NCBI GenBank assembly: GCA_020629715.1
Contig: JAHDCU010000002.1
Span: forward strand, 62,001-126,000
Reading direction: 5' to 3'
Length of the DNA: 64,000 nt
DNA from: Saprospiraceae bacterium
Lineage (GTDB): Bacteria > Bacteroidota > Bacteroidia > Chitinophagales > Saprospiraceae
The translations under genes and the position numbers were made by a program. The notes beneath the pieces are model-generated. The model was given only the letters and a program-made list of their open reading frames with translations, searched no databases and was not told the DNA's origin. Shown here one piece after another: positions 55,101 through 61,640 of the stretch. Position 1 is the first letter of the stretch. Every line of letters begins with the position of its first letter.

Positions 55101-55343
55101 ATGATTTCTACTTTCGTACTGCTGATTTTGATTCCTGCTTTGGTCGTAATCGCAAGTGACATCAGAGTGATGTCCATGTCATTATGGACAGGTAATCAAT
55201 TTACACGAGCTGAAGCTGAGCCAGCCCATCCATCAAGACAAATGCCTTGGTTGATTACGTTATTACTAGCCATTGCAACCCTGGCTGCCATAGGAATGGT
55301 CACTTATGCATCTATTACCTTATCAAATCTAATCTTCTCATGA
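52107..55343 (+). CDS. RND-family efflux pump, inner-membrane permease
   Basis: 1078 aa, the AcrB/HAE-RND architecture with two transmembrane bundles and two large periplasmic loops. Seen: NFFLRNNVAANLLMVFIFIMG start, IYPGASPEEMEEGVTTKIEENL, TM4 proton-relay VVIGILVDDGIVIAENIYQHYERG with the Asp pair, and LGVIALIGILVNDALVFISTFND in TM10. PILLTTITTVAGLLPLM is the typical second-half signature. It exports small molecules using proton-motive force. The divergence from AcrB is large, so no drug specificity is given. The TolC gene overlaps by 4 bp. Confidence 0.93.
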   Translation: MKSIINFFLRNNVAANLLMVFIFIMGIVGLLQIKTTFFPEQPSKLINIQVIYPGASPEEMEEGVTTKIEENLIGIKGLKRSTSTSSENAATIIVEAQEGTDMDILLQDVKNAVDRINSFPSSMEPPVIYKQEQLSAAYQFAISGDMDLRVLKRLARGIEDDILAINGISKVALEGFPEEEIEIAFREQDMRAINITFNEAVQAISQTNILTTGGTIKTKAEDLLIRAKNKQYYADELRDIPVRSNANGGIVYLHQIADIKDRWEDSPVRNYVNNTPSVSINVSNTLDEDMFGVSDSVKEYLEEFKKDHPEVTVTEIRDGKEYLNQRISFIKENGLLGFIIVLILLAMFLNLRLSFWVALAIPISFAGMFMVAGLLGITINVISTFGMIVVIGILVDDGIVIAENIYQHYERGSGPMKAALDGTMEVLPAVTSAIITTVVAFSSFFFIDGFLGDVFKELAIVVIFTLVFSLVEGALILPAHIAHSEALKEGPENTNRIGKFFENIMEFLKTKFYGPLLKFSMKYPLPTLTLCIAGLLIVVGAFRGGFIKGTFFPFVQSDSFQISLELPAGASESQMYPLTDSIQNAIWIVNDQMTAEHFTDSIDLIEKVVLSMGPSSYKANLSIYLRDGESRPGVTNRMITNAIKKQLGPIYEAENLVFGLGNIFGDPVSISLLGTNAQEIALAVDELKSSLANISELTDIQDNNREGLKEVELSLTPKAHNLGITLGELMQNIRQGFFGAEIQRLQRGVDEVKVWVRYGESDRSSLDDLANMRYRTADGRSIPVSELANFEIKRGVITINHLDGRREIRVTADVSDDKASVSDINSDINSEILPAILKKYPSVSVGLEGQARSNAETAASMQTVMPLMFLCMFFIIVLTFSSVSQAMIVFMLIPFGFIGVGFGHWFMDKPISLLSILGVIALIGILVNDALVFISTFNDKIKVGERFKDALYDTGVSRFRPILLTTITTVAGLLPLMLEKSVQAQFLIPMAISVAFGLMISTFVLLILIPALVVIASDIRVMSMSLWTGNQFTRAEAEPAHPSRQMPWLITLLLAIATLAAIGMVTYASITLSNLIFS

Positions 55344-56665
55344 GAATAGCTTATATATATTTCATTTTACTCTTATTTTGTCTTAGCAGTAGCAAGCTAC
55401 AGGCACAAGAAGAGTTATTTTTGGAGAGCGTGATTTCGATAGGATTAGAAAATAATTTTGGTATCAAAATCGCCGAACAAAATATCAGAATCGCCGAAAA
55501 CAATAACACTTGGGCACGTGCCGGTAAAGGTATTACAGTGGATGTAAACGGTAGTTTCTCTAATTCGTTGACTCGAAATAATAATCCTGCTAGCTTCATT
55601 CAAGGTAATTTTTACAATGGTGCTTTGGGAGTAAGTCTAGATGCCAACTGGACGGTCTATAGTGGCGGTAGGATTACCATCAATAAGGATCAACTCAGTT
55701 TGGATGTACAAAATCAGTTGCTTAATCAAGAGGTAGCTATTCATGATCTCTATCGCGAACTGATCCAAAACTACTACAATGTAATCCTGCAACAAGAACG
55801 CTACGACCAACTACAATCTAGTCTAACATTATCTAAAAGACGGCTTGAGTATGAAAATGTAAGAAAAGACTTCGGTAGCTCTAATAGCTTCAATCTCGTA
55901 CAATTTGAATCTGCTCAACTCAATGATTCGTTGGCTCTGAAAGCACAAGAGCTACAAGTAGAACAAGCTAAAAATCAGTTATTCCAAAGTCTGAATATCG
56001 AAAGTTCTGATGACTATGTTTTTGTAGAAAAGCTCTCAGTTGATATTGAAGAAATCGATGCAGATGCACTCAAAAACCAACTCAGTGAGGAGAATTATAC
56101 TTTAAAAACACTGGCCGTGGTCCAAGAGCTTAACATCCTCAATACCAAACTAGCCAGGGCGGCCAAGAAACCAACGGTTAACCTAAATGCATCTGTAGGA
56201 TTCACCGAAAATGGATTTAAGTTTTTTGCAGACGACCCAAATACTGGAGAACCCTTCCCTTTTACGCTTGGAAATAATATCTCCGGTAGTCTCAATGCCA
56301 TTGTATCCTATGGCTTGATCGATCGAGGAATCCGAGATACCAATATCGCCAACGCTGAACTCCAAGAGGACATCGATCAAATCTCCATCGAGCAAGCTCA
56401 ATATGTGCTTAATCAACAACTCGAGCAACTCGTCACCAACTACGATAACCAAATTGCACAACTCCAAATCTCCGATGAGCAAATCGAAGTGGCGAGGAAA
56501 AGTGTTGACCTTACAGAAGAGCGATTCAAATCTGGACAGCTCTCCTCTATAGATCTCATTAATGTCCAAAATCAACTTACCGCAACACTCTTCAGTAAAA
56601 TCAATACCATTTATGGCTTATTGATCACGAAGAATGAGATTGATTATTTGGTAGGGCGGTATTGA
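55340..56665 (+). CDS. TolC-family outer-membrane efflux channel
   Basis: 441 aa from ATG 55340, which overlaps the pump stop (ATGA) and begins a good signal peptide MRIAYIYFILLLFCLSSSKLQAQ; the longer frame would overlap the pump gene. The two OEP repeats of long helices are visible (ENNFGIKIAEQNIRIAENN; LYRELIQNYYNVILQQERYDQLQ; QYVLNQQLEQLVTNYDNQIAQLQISDEQIEVARKSVD interrupted here), and ERFKSGQLSSIDLINVQNQL is the classical TolC C-terminal motif. It completes the tripartite RND pump. Confidence 0.93.
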   Translation: MRIAYIYFILLLFCLSSSKLQAQEELFLESVISIGLENNFGIKIAEQNIRIAENNNTWARAGKGITVDVNGSFSNSLTRNNNPASFIQGNFYNGALGVSLDANWTVYSGGRITINKDQLSLDVQNQLLNQEVAIHDLYRELIQNYYNVILQQERYDQLQSSLTLSKRRLEYENVRKDFGSSNSFNLVQFESAQLNDSLALKAQELQVEQAKNQLFQSLNIESSDDYVFVEKLSVDIEEIDADALKNQLSEENYTLKTLAVVQELNILNTKLARAAKKPTVNLNASVGFTENGFKFFADDPNTGEPFPFTLGNNISGSLNAIVSYGLIDRGIRDTNIANAELQEDIDQISIEQAQYVLNQQLEQLVTNYDNQIAQLQISDEQIEVARKSVDLTEERFKSGQLSSIDLINVQNQLTATLFSKINTIYGLLITKNEIDYLVGRY

Positions 56666-56689
56666 GAAGTAATAGAACAGATTAGTTTG

Positions 56690-57082
56690 TCACTTGAAGT
56701 ATCTTAGAATTCTCTCTCGATCCTCAATATCTTTATCAGATTTGTGATAAAGTTCGATAAATACTATTTTTTCCTGCTTGGAATAGATAGCTTCTGATCG
56801 ACTATCACAATATTTGTCTAATGGAGAGTTGAAATAAGCATATACTAATCTAAGACCGGAATTAACACCTTTTCCCTTTAAAGATTTGCATGCTATTTTC
56901 TTGACCTTGATGACACATGTTTCTATTCCGAGATTATTGATTCTATAACTAAAAGGAGGTCTTTCGTCTGGCAAAATCTCTAAAACTTGTTTTACCGTGG
57001 CAAGATCTTCAGGAATCGATCTATATTTTTTACTAAGCTTCTTTTTATCTTTCCCAAACTCTTTCAGCTCTTCAAAATTCAT
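56690..57082 (-). CDS. RelE/ParE-like toxin of a Panacea-type toxin-antitoxin pair
   Basis: 130 aa. The first part KEFGKDKKKLSKKYRSIPEDLATVKQVLE resembles the helical hairpin at the start of RelE/ParE toxins. The middle and end (NSGLRLVYAYFNS and EKIVFIELYHKSDKDIEDRERILRYF) give the beta-strand core (R-x-x-Y; I-x-x-L/I-Y-x-K) of that fold. The family could be a gp49/HigB-like branch, and mRNA cleavage on the ribosome would then be expected. It starts 2 bp after the stop of the antitoxin gene, which is the first gene of the pair. The toxin identification is from pattern and context. Confidence 0.65.
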   Translation of the reverse strand: MNFEELKEFGKDKKKLSKKYRSIPEDLATVKQVLEILPDERPPFSYRINNLGIETCVIKVKKIACKSLKGKGVNSGLRLVYAYFNSPLDKYCDSRSEAIYSKQEKIVFIELYHKSDKDIEDRERILRYFK

Positions 57083-57084
57083 CC

Positions 57085-57876
57085 TTATACTTCTTCTTGA
57101 TAGTTTCTGACTGAGAAAGGTGCTTCACGATAAAAAACCAATTCATAATTAATTTCTTTCCCTTCTTTGGATGCTTTCCAGGGAATATCTTGATGAGAAT
57201 AATTACTTATGGCTTTTGCACTCCAATCAGAATACAGATCAATTACCTTATCAATAACCTCCTTCTCAGAGGCTTTTAATTTTGTTAAATCTGACTTCTT
57301 AAGTGGTATATATCTAGTCTGAGTATAATTATGATATTCCGTTTTGATCCGCTTTAGTTCACCTTCATCAATCATGGTTTTGATTATAGCATCTAAATTG
57401 TTTGGAACTGGACCATATGGAAGTTTTCTATACGTTGCACCTGATAAATGCTCCTCATAGAGTTCATAATAATTAAAATCTGAGAAATACAACAACTTGT
57501 ATAAAAGGGTCTCACCCACATTTGGTTTACCTGCACAATGCTCTAGAATATAAAGCAGGACATTTTTAAATTTATTGATTTCAAGTGTGGGTACGGATAT
57601 TCTGTCATAGGACTGCTTTTCTTCTTGTACTTCTGTTTTAATGTAAGGTTCTACATCAGACTCCTGCCCCATAAAATCATCCATAGAAAAACGCAGCTCT
57701 ATAGATAGCCGATACATTTCTAATGCAGAAAGACTTCTGTTCCCCAACTCTACCTGAGTCATAGCCGATCTAGAAACGCCAATGCGTTTTGCAAGATCAT
57801 CTTGAGAAAGCCCTTTGCCTCGGCGTAAGGTTGATAATCTCTTTCCTAATTCTTGCGGTGTGATGTCAGATATCAT
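57085..57876 (-). CDS. HTH + Panacea (DUF4065) antitoxin
   Basis: 263 aa from ATG 57876 (MISDITPQELGKRLSTLRRG); the open frame to 57933 starts with GTG and would lie across the promoter. An XRE-type HTH covers about residues 8-60 (GLSQDDLAKRIGVSRSAMTQVELGNRSLS). The C-terminal Panacea/SocA-like domain (DUF4065) spans about 105-245: LLYKLLYFSDFNYYELYEEHL, YRKLPYGPVPNN and SHQDIPWKAS. Panacea proteins are promiscuous antitoxins that pair with unrelated toxins, with an HTH fused in many. It is transcribed before the toxin, and its DNA-binding domain fits the inverted repeat at 57916-57932. Confidence 0.78.
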   Translation of the reverse strand: MISDITPQELGKRLSTLRRGKGLSQDDLAKRIGVSRSAMTQVELGNRSLSALEMYRLSIELRFSMDDFMGQESDVEPYIKTEVQEEKQSYDRISVPTLEINKFKNVLLYILEHCAGKPNVGETLLYKLLYFSDFNYYELYEEHLSGATYRKLPYGPVPNNLDAIIKTMIDEGELKRIKTEYHNYTQTRYIPLKKSDLTKLKASEKEVIDKVIDLYSDWSAKAISNYSHQDIPWKASKEGKEINYELVFYREAPFSVRNYQEEV

Positions 57877-57902
57877 AAGAGATTCCAGATATTTGGTCTT
57901 AG

Positions 57903-57932
57903 CAAAGATACTAAATGTTTGGTATTCAAACA
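57903..57932 (-). promoter_or_regulatory. promoter with overlapping operator of the Panacea toxin-antitoxin pair
   Basis: On the minus strand, TTTG (complement of 57927-57930), a 16-bp spacer and TATCTTTG (57903-57910) form a promoter. The inverted repeat TGTTTG-GTATT-CAAACA (57916-57932) covers the -33 box, as expected for autorepression by the HTH antitoxin. A related AATGTTTAG half-site occurs on the minus strand near 57949-57957. Confidence 0.55.
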
Positions 57933-58083
57933 CTATAATGATAAATATCTAAACATTATTTGTTCTATTCCCTAAACTAACAAAATGCAATACTCTCAGC
58001 ATTTCAAATACTAATTTTCGCTTGGATAGACAATTAATAAAAGGAAACTTAAACATTCTTTTCAAGTAAATTTTAGATTATAC

Positions 58084-59067
58084 TCAAAACCACCCCTTCC
58101 TTTTAAAATACCAAATTGAGCAACAGGTAATCAAGATCATCAATCCCAATAAACAGAAATAGCCATATTCAATTTGTAGCTCTGGGATATACTTAAAATT
58201 CATACCATATAGACCTGCTAGGAAACTGAGTGGGATGAATATGACGGAGAAAATCGTTAGTGTTTTCATAACCTCATTGAGTCGATGTGATTGCATGCTG
58301 AATACAAAATTCATCTTACTCTCTAGCTCTGCCAATTCAAATTCTGTATCTAGGATAAGGGTGACGACTTGCTCTTTAAGCTCAGAGAAATAATGAGTCT
58401 GAAAGTCCTCAAAATCGAGTTTCTCAAGCTTGATGATGGCATCACGGAGTGCCATAGAGTATCTTCGGATGGTATTTAGTGATTGTTTTTGCTGCTCTAT
58501 TTTTACAATATGATCAGGCGAAGGATCATGTATACTTTTGGCGGATTCTTCAATTGATTTGACATTGAAATTGGCAAAAGCCGTAGAATAATTATCTATG
58601 ATGGACTCCAAGATAAGGAAGAGTAAGTAGTCCACTCCCCTCTTTCGGATGATCCCCATATTATTTCTGATGCGTTCTCGTATCCAATCAAAGTAATCAC
58701 CATGCTTTTCTTGCTGACTCCATATAAATTGACCCCCGATGATGAATCGCATGTGCTCTGCACTCAACTCATTTCCGTCGGTCAGTAATATGTTTAAGGT
58801 CAATAATATCTCTCGATCCAGCTGAATTAGCTTATTCGTATGATCGTCATTATTGAGTAGCTTGAGTAGAAACTCATCTAGGCGATTTTCCTGCACTACC
58901 ACCCTCGAATCTTCAAAACAATCGAGGCTATATGTATTGAGCCATACTACCTGGTCTTTATAGCTGTTGAATTTTAGATGCCCAATAGTCAGATTTGTGA
59001 TATGCGACTCTCTTTGCATATCATAGTGTATTAAGCTGGAAGATTCAAGAAATGCAGAAGTAAGCAT
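58084..59067 (-). CDS. corA: CorA-family magnesium/cobalt transporter
   Basis: 327 aa. A long cytosolic helical domain (residues 1 to about 265) is followed by two C-terminal transmembrane helices. The pore motif is visible as SFLAGLYGMNFKYIPEL with the conserved GMN, followed by the last helix YFCLLGLMILITCCSIWYF and the positively charged KRKGWF end. The stalk helix VFSMQSHRLNEVMKTLTIFSVIFIPL is typical. It forms a pentameric Mg2+ channel in the inner membrane. The crotonase-like gene upstream ends 3 bp before its start. Confidence 0.93.
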   Translation of the reverse strand: MLTSAFLESSSLIHYDMQRESHITNLTIGHLKFNSYKDQVVWLNTYSLDCFEDSRVVVQENRLDEFLLKLLNNDDHTNKLIQLDREILLTLNILLTDGNELSAEHMRFIIGGQFIWSQQEKHGDYFDWIRERIRNNMGIIRKRGVDYLLFLILESIIDNYSTAFANFNVKSIEESAKSIHDPSPDHIVKIEQQKQSLNTIRRYSMALRDAIIKLEKLDFEDFQTHYFSELKEQVVTLILDTEFELAELESKMNFVFSMQSHRLNEVMKTLTIFSVIFIPLSFLAGLYGMNFKYIPELQIEYGYFCLLGLMILITCCSIWYFKRKGWF

Positions 59068-59070
59068 ATC

Positions 59071-59850
59071 CTAAGATTTCTTGGCCTTCAACGACGCCAT
59101 AAAGAAGTCAAACTTCTTTTTGGTCTTGGGACTCAGCATTGATTTTTCGATAGCCTCCATCCATCTTGACATATCTGCTTCAGAATGCTTTACAAGTCCT
59201 TTTTTGGTCAATATTCGTGTTTCTATGAATGCCTCTATATCTACTTTTAGAATCTGTGTCATATACTCTTCTGCCCTACTTAGCACATGATCGACTTCGA
59301 TAGATTCGTGTACCAAGCCAAGATCTAGAGCTACATCACTGTTATATAATGCCGCTTGCTGCATGAGTGCAAATGCTCGGTCTTCGCCTAAGGCATAGGC
59401 GTATATATCACAATAAAGTTCTGGTATAGACAAAGACATTTTGAATTCATTCATACCCATGACATGCTTATCGCCCTTACCCATAATACGGTAGTCAGAG
59501 CAAAGCGCCATGATAGTTCCTGCAGCTGGAGCAAATCCTGTAATAGCGCATACGACTGGTTTTGGAAAATGGATGAGGTCTAGCATCATTTGGAAATTAG
59601 ACCTCCAAAAGTCTCTTACATACTCGTCACCTCCTGTTGCCAACGCAACTACATCCAATCCAGCGCAGAAGCAATGTGGACGACCCGCTATGATAATTCC
59701 TCTGATCGAATCATCTTCTTTAAATACACCCAATGCATGAGAGACTTCATCCGTGATCGCTTTATTGAGGACATTGACTTTTCCATTATTGAGTTGTATT
59801 ATAGCGTAGCCTTCTCTGTTGTGAATGATTAGCGTTTCGTAATTGCTCAT
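59071..59850 (-). CDS. crotonase-family protein, delta3-delta2-enoyl-CoA isomerase-like
   Basis: 259 aa from ATG 59850 (MSNYETLIIHNREGYAIIQL); the frame continues to 59916, but those residues look unlike the family. GRPHCFCAGLDVVAL is the first oxyanion-hole motif, and CAITGFAPAAGTIMALCSDYRIM the second, with Ala/Gly rather than the hydratase GGGxE. The sole candidate base is Glu135 in GMNEFKMSL. This matches the ECI1-type isomerase pattern (PAGG..ALxCDYR...NE) better than a hydratase. It shares an operon with corA, a functionally unrelated neighbour. Confidence 0.82.
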   Translation of the reverse strand: MSNYETLIIHNREGYAIIQLNNGKVNVLNKAITDEVSHALGVFKEDDSIRGIIIAGRPHCFCAGLDVVALATGGDEYVRDFWRSNFQMMLDLIHFPKPVVCAITGFAPAAGTIMALCSDYRIMGKGDKHVMGMNEFKMSLSIPELYCDIYAYALGEDRAFALMQQAALYNSDVALDLGLVHESIEVDHVLSRAEEYMTQILKVDIEAFIETRILTKKGLVKHSEADMSRWMEAIEKSMLSPKTKKKFDFFMASLKAKKS

Positions 59851-59898: not shown

Positions 59899-60993
59899 TT
59901 GATTACTAAAATTCAAGTTAAGGGTTTTAAAAGTATTAAGGAATTAGAGATTGACCTAAATCCTGTGAATATCTTAATCGGCGCTAATGGAGCTGGAAAA
60001 AGTAACTTCATTTCTATATTTTCTTTTTTGAGACATGTAATGAATAAGAATCTTCAACAGCATGTTATCAAATCAGGCGGAGCGGATAAAATACTTCATT
60101 ATGGAAAGAAGATAACCCAAGAAATAGAAATTATAATTCATCTCAAATCGAAAAACAATCATAGAAATCAATTCATTTTAAATCTAGGAGTATCAAATAA
60201 TACACTTTTTATAAAAAATGTAAGAACTAAATATTTTCATGCAGGATCTTGGACTGACTTTCAAGATTACGAAACAAACGTTTGGGAATCTCAGTTTGCT
60301 AACATAAAACATGGTCAAGCTCATTTTGTAAGTCCACGGATTTTGGAATATCAAGTCTACCATTTTCACGATACTAGCAATAGTTCGGTTATTAAAGGTA
60401 ACGCAAACATAAACGATGCTTACTTTTTGAGACCAGATGGTAGTAATCTCGCCGCCATATTACACTATTTAAAAGAAAATAACCCGTATGTATTAAGAAA
60501 AATAGAACTAACCATTAAATCGATTGCTCCTTTTTTTGACTCATTTGTTCTGCTTCCTCAAAAACTCAATCCCAATTCTATTGAATTAATGTGGAAAGAA
60601 GTCAGCGCTCTAGACGTATATTTCAATGCTCATGATCTATCCGATGGAACCTTAAGATTTATATGTCTAGCAACTCTGCTTTTACAACCCTTTCCTCCGA
60701 GTACTATTATTATTGACGAGCCAGAACTTGGGCTGCATCCAGCTGCTATAAATAAGCTGTCAGCGATGATTAAAGTTGCTTCTACTAAATCTCAAATTAT
60801 TATCTCTACTCAATCGAGCAGCTTGATAGATAACTTTGAAACTGATGAAATAATAATTTGTGATAGGAACCTAAGTGGATCTATATTTAATCGGTTACGA
60901 GAGCAGGACTTAGATGTTTGGCTAAATGATTATTCTCTTGGTGAATTATGGGAAAATTATAAAATTGGAGCTCAACCAAGTTTGATACCATGA
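59899..60993 (+). CDS. AAA15/SMC-like ATPase of an AAA-DUF4276 cassette
   Basis: 364 aa. The start codon appears to be TTG (59899): the protein then begins TKIQVKGFKSIKELEIDLNP, and no in-frame ATG occurs before the upstream stop. Walker A is GANGAGKSN (28-36), an ABC-like signature DLSDGTLRF is near 246-254, Walker B IIIDEPELGLHP is at 270-281, followed by the H-loop-like STQSSSLID. It resembles AAA ATPases of the OLD/RecF/AAA15 type, such as those in PARIS (AriA) and RloA-like defence systems. The length suits a stand-alone ATPase without a TOPRIM tail. It overlaps the DUF4276 gene by 4 bp. A box TATCTTTA at 59862 is one mismatch from the -7 consensus. Confidence 0.8.
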   Translation: MITKIQVKGFKSIKELEIDLNPVNILIGANGAGKSNFISIFSFLRHVMNKNLQQHVIKSGGADKILHYGKKITQEIEIIIHLKSKNNHRNQFILNLGVSNNTLFIKNVRTKYFHAGSWTDFQDYETNVWESQFANIKHGQAHFVSPRILEYQVYHFHDTSNSSVIKGNANINDAYFLRPDGSNLAAILHYLKENNPYVLRKIELTIKSIAPFFDSFVLLPQKLNPNSIELMWKEVSALDVYFNAHDLSDGTLRFICLATLLLQPFPPSTIIIDEPELGLHPAAINKLSAMIKVASTKSQIIISTQSSSLIDNFETDEIIICDRNLSGSIFNRLREQDLDVWLNDYSLGELWENYKIGAQPSLIP

Positions 60994-61640
60994 GCCAAAG
61001 ATTAGTGTTTATAGTAGAAGGTCAAACTGAGGTCAACTTTGTGAATAAAGTTATTATACCTGAACTCATAATTGAATTTCCTACATGCCAACCCATTGCT
61101 CAGACAATTATTTCAAATAGAAGAAAACATAAAAAAGGAGGTGTACCAGGTTATCCGAAATTTAGAAACGAAATAGATCGGACCTTAGCACAAGGCGATG
61201 TTTTAATTACTACGTTAATCGACTTCTATAAATTACCTTCTGACTTTCCAGAATTTACTGTTGATTCGTCAAGAATTGACGTTATCGAGTCTGCAATTTT
61301 AGAAGATTTTGAAAATAACCCAAATCTTATTCCATATATCCAAAAACATGAATTTGAAGCGCTGCTATTTACTAATCGAACCGGATTTGAAATATGTACT
61401 CAAGATAAAACTGCACTTCAGGAGATAGACCAAATTATTATCGATTATCCAAATCCGGAAGATATCAATACTGGCCCCGAATCATTCCCTTCAAAACGTA
61501 TGAAAGCTATATTTAATTATAAAAAGACATTCCACGGAGACTTATTACTTGAAGGCTTAACTGTCGATAAAATTAGGCATAAATGCTCAAGGTTTTCAAC
61601 TTGGATCTCAAAATTGAAACAAAGACTTCTGATTTTTTAA
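60990..61640 (+). CDS. DUF4276-family (TOPRIM-like) effector of the AAA-DUF4276 cassette
   Basis: 216 aa. IVEGQTEVNFV (8-18) contains the TOPRIM Glu of the VEGxTE motif, TTLIDFYKLP (74-83) has the DxY acidic motif, and KHEFEALLF (119-127) adds more acidic residues; together these are the DUF4276 pattern. Such proteins may act as nucleases or nucleotide hydrolases. Coupling by an ATGA overlap to the AAA gene recalls split OLD and PARIS systems, where the ATPase senses a phage trigger and controls the partner. PARIS uses DUF4435 instead, so this would be a cousin. Defence function is inference. Confidence 0.72.
   Translation: MSQRLVFIVEGQTEVNFVNKVIIPELIIEFPTCQPIAQTIISNRRKHKKGGVPGYPKFRNEIDRTLAQGDVLITTLIDFYKLPSDFPEFTVDSSRIDVIESAILEDFENNPNLIPYIQKHEFEALLFTNRTGFEICTQDKTALQEIDQIIIDYPNPEDINTGPESFPSKRMKAIFNYKKTFHGDLLLEGLTVDKIRHKCSRFSTWISKLKQRLLIF

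Follow-up and report, generated by a model that had tools for sequence, protein, structure and literature searches.

PanAT toxin–antitoxin systems are established, with an HTH domain present in 343 PanAs, and it has been proposed that the Panacea domain acts as a sensor and that the HTH, where present, controls the operon (PMC8832971, PMC10440598 for the systems; PMC10440598 for the proposal). According to the same two papers, ParE is among the domains of predicted Panacea partners, and the RelE/ParE fold is one of those common in the NetFlax network. The locus described here, which lies in a 64,000-nucleotide stretch of Saprospiraceae DNA (the window), resembles the published systems (PMC8832971, 2022; PMC10440598, 2023) in being a chromosomal, antitoxin-first, two-gene arrangement with an HTH-Panacea antitoxin, but differs in its toxin, Table 1 of PMC8832971 describing none of its ten characterised pairs as RelE-like. 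The cluster to which this PanT belongs may well be contained in the published Panacea dataset (Dataset S1 of PMC8832971).

With respect to the toxin, the comparison to be made is with Vibrio cholerae HigBA2, the HigB2 of which is listed under PF06296 (RelE). PanT shares with HigB2 the fold, as predicted here, along with the KG(K/R)G..G.R..Y and Y.K motifs, and both operons encode an HTH antitoxin, that of HigBA2 having been crystallised on operator DNA (title of 8a0x). The two are dissimilar in that the order in PF_RelE systems is described as toxin first (PMC11980606), whereas panAT is antitoxin first and has an added Panacea domain, and in that PanT is longer by about a dozen residues between its second helix and the strand at 57–63 and lacks a Pfam match of its own. 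The MqsR:PanA pairs of B. fungorum and L. rossiae also have an RNase as toxin and, as antitoxin, a Panacea protein with an HTH (PMC10440598), and PMC11980606 places MqsR alongside RelE in the BECR-fold superfamily. MqsR is, however, of another toxin family, and the B. fungorum system neutralises via a zinc-binding domain (PMC10440598), whereas besides HTH and Panacea no further domain was recognised by Pfam in the PanA of the window.

The locus is very probably a type II PanAT module, in which a RelE/HigB2-like mRNase, PanT, is neutralised by PanA and the operon is autorepressed via two palindromes. In such a module, PanT, as a RelE-superfamily toxin close to HigB2, would cut mRNA on the ribosome, such that translation stops, and PanA would bind and neutralise PanT through its Panacea domain, its HTH face, or both. 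The HTH of the PanA dimer would occupy two 17-bp palindromes, 23 bp apart, which cover the −33 region, thereby keeping the operon off, and loss of PanA or excess of PanT, as possible triggers, would lift the repression.

The panAT pair and its distribution

At 56690–57876 on the minus strand, the window contains a PanAT-type gene pair, with panA first and panT second and a gap of 2 bp between them (TAA-GG-ATG). Both reading frames and the gap are as given in the initial annotation, which described an HTH-DUF4065 protein 2 bp ahead of a RelE/ParE-like toxin. The pair and the segment that carries it are as follows.

57085–57876, minus strand: panA, 263 aa, HTH-Panacea antitoxin and probable autorepressor, assigned by its Pfam domains, with an ATG start as in relatives
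56690–57082, minus strand: panT, 130 aa, RelE/HigB2-like toxin, assigned by predicted fold, family profile match and conserved R78, Y112 and K114
56672–58081, no strand assigned: panAT-bearing segment of about 1.4 kb, flanked by a tolC-like gene and corA, which converge, and absent from a congener

PanA matches SocA_Panacea (PF13274) with an E value of 3e-22 and 80.1 bits against a cut-off of 25.7, and matches HTH_3 at 3e-8, above the Pfam cut-off; a search with PF13274 finds one Panacea protein in its own genome. A GTG at 57933 was considered as the panA start and ruled out, as it precedes the −7 box, and the relatives begin at the position of the ATG at 57876.

Downstream of the pair, a tolC-like gene on the plus strand (named by eye) ends at 56665, and on the other side corA (minus strand; Pfam CorA, 6e-44), convergent with the tolC-like gene, ends at 58084. 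An Rfam scan of 55300–59100 gave no match above the gathering score. In one congener (G001, C346) the equivalent site is empty, 89 nt standing in for the 1410 nt that carry panAT in the window, and is bordered by a corA that is 85% identical and by a tolC-like end that is 95% identical over 115 residues; the module was, therefore, either gained here or lost there. Some 2 kb from panAT, at 59899–61640 on the plus strand, an AAA_21 ATPase gene is followed by one for a DUF4276 protein, a pair which matches PADLOC HEC-01A (1.7e-130) and HEC-01B (7e-62) and is as such a candidate anti-phage system.

PanT is found in 7 of 100 kin genomes, its own included, and is absent from both of the two congeners searched, one of which is 65% complete. 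A pattern search of a species-genome collection gave 406 matches, of which 278 encode PanT relatives; 80 of these were fetched, and the titles listed are of Bacteroidota or unassigned bacteria. Ignavibacteria are here counted as Bacteroidota. Collections of phage, plasmid and viral contigs yielded no PanT relative.

A PanA relative lies directly upstream of panT on the same strand in 78 of the 80 fetched loci, the two others being L011, at the end of a contig, and L074, in which a fragment of an IstB_IS21 gene (6e-32) precedes panT. The match to panA is partial in L050, L061 and L071, for which a contig end is the explanation in L050 and L071 and not in L061. The commonest panA–panT junction is a 4-bp overlap (52/78), and in 74 of the 78 loci the gap is between −11 and +43, the other four being unclassified. 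In other words, the two genes form an operon within 100 nt of each other in several species, with a Panacea domain in the antitoxin, as is characteristic of PanAT. L001, L003, L004 and L008 were dropped as duplicates before one comparison of relatives. PanA and PanT distances correlate across the 78 loci with r of 0.77, a value reached in none of 999 permutations (at most 0.29), and in a sample of 395 genomes from across the phylum a close PanA (E below 1e-89) is present in five, with a close PanT (E below 1e-27) in those same five and no others. A flank gene is common to 88 of 3160 locus pairs, which is a lower bound, many loci having short flanks. The pair at 56690–57876 is a genuine and well-conserved PanAT module of a kind already known, the distribution of which, on comparison of these genomes, is patchy and mobile.

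As a separate observation, L074:1–839, from a pond MAG, has panT behind the IstB_IS21 fragment in the place of panA and may represent an orphan toxin.

Predicted fold and putative catalytic residues of PanT

The PanT of the window has no match in Pfam, NCBIfam or PADLOC, and a comparison with PDB sequences gave no convincing match (best E 0.71). The curated cut-off of PF06296 (RelE) is missed both by the window toxin and by the members of its family (best E 0.0012), so that PanT is filed here as RelE-like and not as a member of PF06296. When matches are admitted up to a limit of E 5, weak ones to PF06296 appear in 49 of the 84 family members, although unrelated families score alike in that scan, namely DUF7683 (10 members, best 0.002) and FadA (16 members, 0.0099). 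With a profile built from the PanT family alone, V. cholerae HigB2 scores best among the PDB profiles, at a marginal E of 0.0045 over positions 62–103 of 114.

An AlphaFold2 model of PanT from 84 sequences has a pLDDT of 83.9 and a pTM of 0.77, a first model from 7 sequences (pLDDT 43) having been discarded. The modelled alignment took in RelE-like intermediates, such that the fold prediction is only partly independent of the RelE hypothesis. A Foldseek search of the model against the PDB gave no E below 0.001; the best value was 0.18 (YoeB/ParE), and the top matches were to YoeB/ParE and YafQ. VIA-align, which re-ranks Foldseek's own matches and in which neighbouring rows within Z 1 count as tied, places HigB2 first with Z 10.4 and an rmsd of 2.1 over 91 residues, archaeal RelE and YafQ following in a tie. 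Among the 50 VIA-align matches listed, 46 have a toxin or a toxin–antitoxin complex in the title, the other four being 7etr, 2otr, 1z8m and ribosome-bound Cami1. A RelE/BECR fold is thus predicted for PanT, which agrees with the RelE/ParE fold that the initial annotation expected of the 130-aa protein and the absence of which it named as counting against its reading.

The residues at the putative active site are strongly conserved, with R78 in 84/84, Y112 in 80/84 and K114 in 82/84 family members, and in the profile alignment they align with R64, Y82 and K84 of HigB2 (chain index). PMC9098466 equates HigB2 Y82 with a core residue that stands two positions ahead of a lysine, the counterpart of catalytic RelE R81, and also names RelE R61 as catalytic. 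Read as motifs, the PanT residues would map to RelE R61 and R81, with R78 as the putative R61 equivalent. RelE and gyrase-targeting ParE have a common fold, and PanT might be a ParE-type gyrase inhibitor and not an mRNase, the rest of the module remaining unchanged. Such a reading could draw on the ParE structures among the VIA-align matches listed (5cw7 with Z 8.8; 6n90, titled YoeB/ParE, with Z 9.8) and on weak ParE_toxin matches in 7/84 family members, but it is unlikely in view of the greater number of family members with PF06296 matches, of HigB2 being top in both the profile and the VIA comparisons (rows within Z 1 being tied) and of the near invariance of the RelE-type catalytic R, Y and K. 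ParE toxins are described as being without RNase catalytic residues (PMC11980606), whereas PanT has them. Since these residues are kept in PanT and absent from ParE toxins, mRNA cleavage is to be expected, and PanT, as a member of the RelE superfamily, is probably a ribosome-dependent mRNA endonuclease.

In a toxin alignment of 60 of the 84 family toxins and 24 others, PanT carries an insertion of about 12–22 residues between its last two core strands (window 56770–56830), which is also found in L009–L011, L014, L030, L053 and L070, most of the family being without it.

Promoter and putative operators

The region ahead of panA contains the following elements.

57939–57955, minus strand: distal, decayed operator O2, TGTTTAGATATTTATCA, 23 bp from O1, with 7 of 8 conserved letters
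57916–57932, minus strand: proximal operator O1, TGTTTGAATACCAAACA, 17.6 bits, overlapping the −33 region
57931–57933, minus strand: slot which we take to be the −33 promoter element, GTG here and TTG in 49/57 relatives, 20 nt ahead of the −7 box
57903–57910, minus strand: −7 box TATCTTTG, of the Bacteroidota form TAnnTTTG
57898, minus strand: predicted transcription start, placed from the box position in PMC9723704, giving a leader of about 22 nt

The consensus TAnnTTTG is as printed in PMC9723704, in which the box is at −12 to −5. A promoter of the form TTTG-N16-TATCTTTG had been suggested for this region, the letters of which are indeed in place, but what is conserved among the relatives is the TTG 20 nt before the box, TTTG at the N16 spacing occurring in 11/57. 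The conserved TTG of the slot overlaps the start of the palindrome.

The inverted repeat TGTTTG-N5-CAAACA had also been annotated and is present on the minus strand at O1. With one mismatch permitted it occurs once in the 64 kb, where 0.20 occurrences are expected and 18 of 100 shuffles contain at least one, and the looser form TGTT-N9-AACA occurs once in the window, with 1.52 expected. The palindrome is, therefore, weakly surprising within the window alone, and its significance emerges from the comparison of loci. A set of 78 panA upstream regions, including that of the window, was reduced to 70 by dropping 8 near-duplicates. In the last 110 nt before panA, TGTT-N9-AACA is found in 58 of these 70 non-redundant loci (window included), whereas 200 dinucleotide shuffles gave 1.2 loci on average and 5 at most; the other spacers, N3–N8 and N10–N15, give 0–7 of 70, and the exact palindrome is absent in 12. 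The −7 box TANNTTTG is found in 60/70 loci (shuffles: mean 10.7, maximum 19).

What had been taken for a second related half-site is indeed a nearby copy, but a more complete one, being a whole, if decayed, second operator which stands at the 23-bp period of the family. Two exact palindromes are present in 26 loci and are spaced by 23 bp in all 26, and among the 57 relatives that have the proximal site, 44 retain at least 6 of the 8 letters at the site 23 bp upstream of it. Seven other offsets give 0–2, and the closest of these run into the proximal site, which constrains them. Of the 127,968 window positions on both strands, the O1 score is reached at 2 and that of O2, 7.7 bits, at 50. A third candidate operator, GTTTAGGGAATAGAACA, scores 6.0 bits, which is too weak to claim.

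A conserved operator thus overlaps the operon's own promoter, an arrangement typical of autoregulated type II operons. A description of a Panacea operator was not found in the main-text passages covered from PMC8832971, PMC10440598, PMC11980606, PMC9098466, PMC2701414 and PMC9723704. Within its own genome, the combination of palindrome and −7 box occurs once at zero mismatch; at one mismatch there are four further matches and two in all with a reversed control, such that no wider regulon is claimed.

The TGTT and AACA arms are AT-rich and generic, and the palindrome is a putative PanA site, from which it could be argued that it is the target of some other host regulator. This would seem highly improbable, since the palindrome travels with panA through mostly unrelated flanks (the 88/3160 pairs given above), is unique together with its box in the genome, and is kept by toxinless PanA relatives (see below), whereas L092 and L093, with a different HTH, carry another palindrome (by eye). 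Conservation through mostly unrelated flanks and retention by the toxinless relatives also lend support to autoregulation by the HTH-Panacea antitoxin, as first suggested for this locus. Among the points against the locus being a module of the type proposed are the failure of PanT to match Pfam, the decay of O2 in the window, the departure of the −33 slot from consensus, and the report that some published PanTs are non-toxic or not rescued in E. coli (PMC8832971).

Toxinless relatives and apparent exchange of partners

Thirteen genomes of another Bacteroidota family, f38 (12 of genus g146 and 1 of g151; L124–L130 and L132–L137), code for a protein resembling HTH-PanA, in most cases some 207 aa long, and in the same phylum sample none of them has a PanT among matches at E 0.01. 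Pfam finds the HTH alone in the four proteins scanned. A profile of the Panacea half, however, matches all six proteins checked, with whole-sequence E values of 3e-8 to 4e-18, the main stretch of the match covering about two thirds of the profile. Just before the start, TGTT-N9-AACA is present in 7 of 9 upstream regions (all g146) and differs by one letter in the other two; these nine regions, from the 13 loci, are closely related to each other and the count is without a shuffle control. No TAnnTTTG box was found in the nine. In six loci with larger flanks (L173–L178), a divergent neighbour is common to all six, the one scanned having weak vWA similarity (E 0.0019, below cut-off), and in three an exonuclease-like gene (by eye) comes after. 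The antitoxin in f38 looks to be vertically inherited and seems to be a domesticated one with a shortened Panacea domain. Retention of the palindrome by relatives that have no toxin suggests that the operator belongs to the antitoxin.

The persistence of these toxinless proteins at a conserved place with the palindrome would fit a mainly sensing or regulatory role for panAT as well, with PanA as repressor and PanT as a weakly toxic or non-toxic corepressor. We think this very unlikely: hardly any of the 84 toxins lacks a catalytic residue, and, as with active toxins, the module is mobile and patchily distributed. Within the type II module that we prefer, a more elaborate scheme can be envisaged, tentative and on balance doubtful, in which HTH-PanA would be a cooperative repressor, its two dimers 23 bp apart being bridged by PanT (conditional cooperativity), and Panacea would be a sensor that frees the toxin and opens the promoter. 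The f38 antitoxin, having lost its toxin and part of Panacea but not the palindrome, would then serve as a fixed regulator in the chromosome, next to the divergent, weakly vWA-like gene.

Further out, the next PanT matches in Bacteroidota (E of about 1e-9 to 1e-2) were inspected at 25 loci, L094–L118. The matching gene is found just after an ORF of 63–75 aa in 17, just before a gene for a 95–97-aa protein, HTH-like by eye, in 5, and next to neither in 3. RelE-type modules are organised in this way, with short or HTH-like neighbours, so the PanT branch has apparently switched its antitoxin partner. The sister branch, L092 and L093, also has an HTH-PanA, diverged and with the different HTH mentioned above; L092 is without TGTT-N9-AACA, and L093 has one chance-like match that overlaps its −7 box.

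Two other Panacea arrangements were seen. At L131:1112–1962, a stand-alone Panacea protein is followed by a 114-aa protein that has no Pfam match and is RelE/ParE-like by eye. In L138, L140, L141 and L145, a gene for 117–121 aa immediately precedes that of a different Panacea protein, which is about 330 aa long.

Many toxins have a Panacea antitoxin as their partner, and the panAT family provides a well-defined model for the proposal, made in PMC10440598, of a sensor combined with an HTH regulator. What this locus and its relatives add are the double operator and the toxinless relatives. With a stable HTH-Panacea/RelE-like pair that is found in many Bacteroidota and has a sharp double operator, repression, neutralisation and sensing should be separable by means of truncations and mutations of the operator arms.
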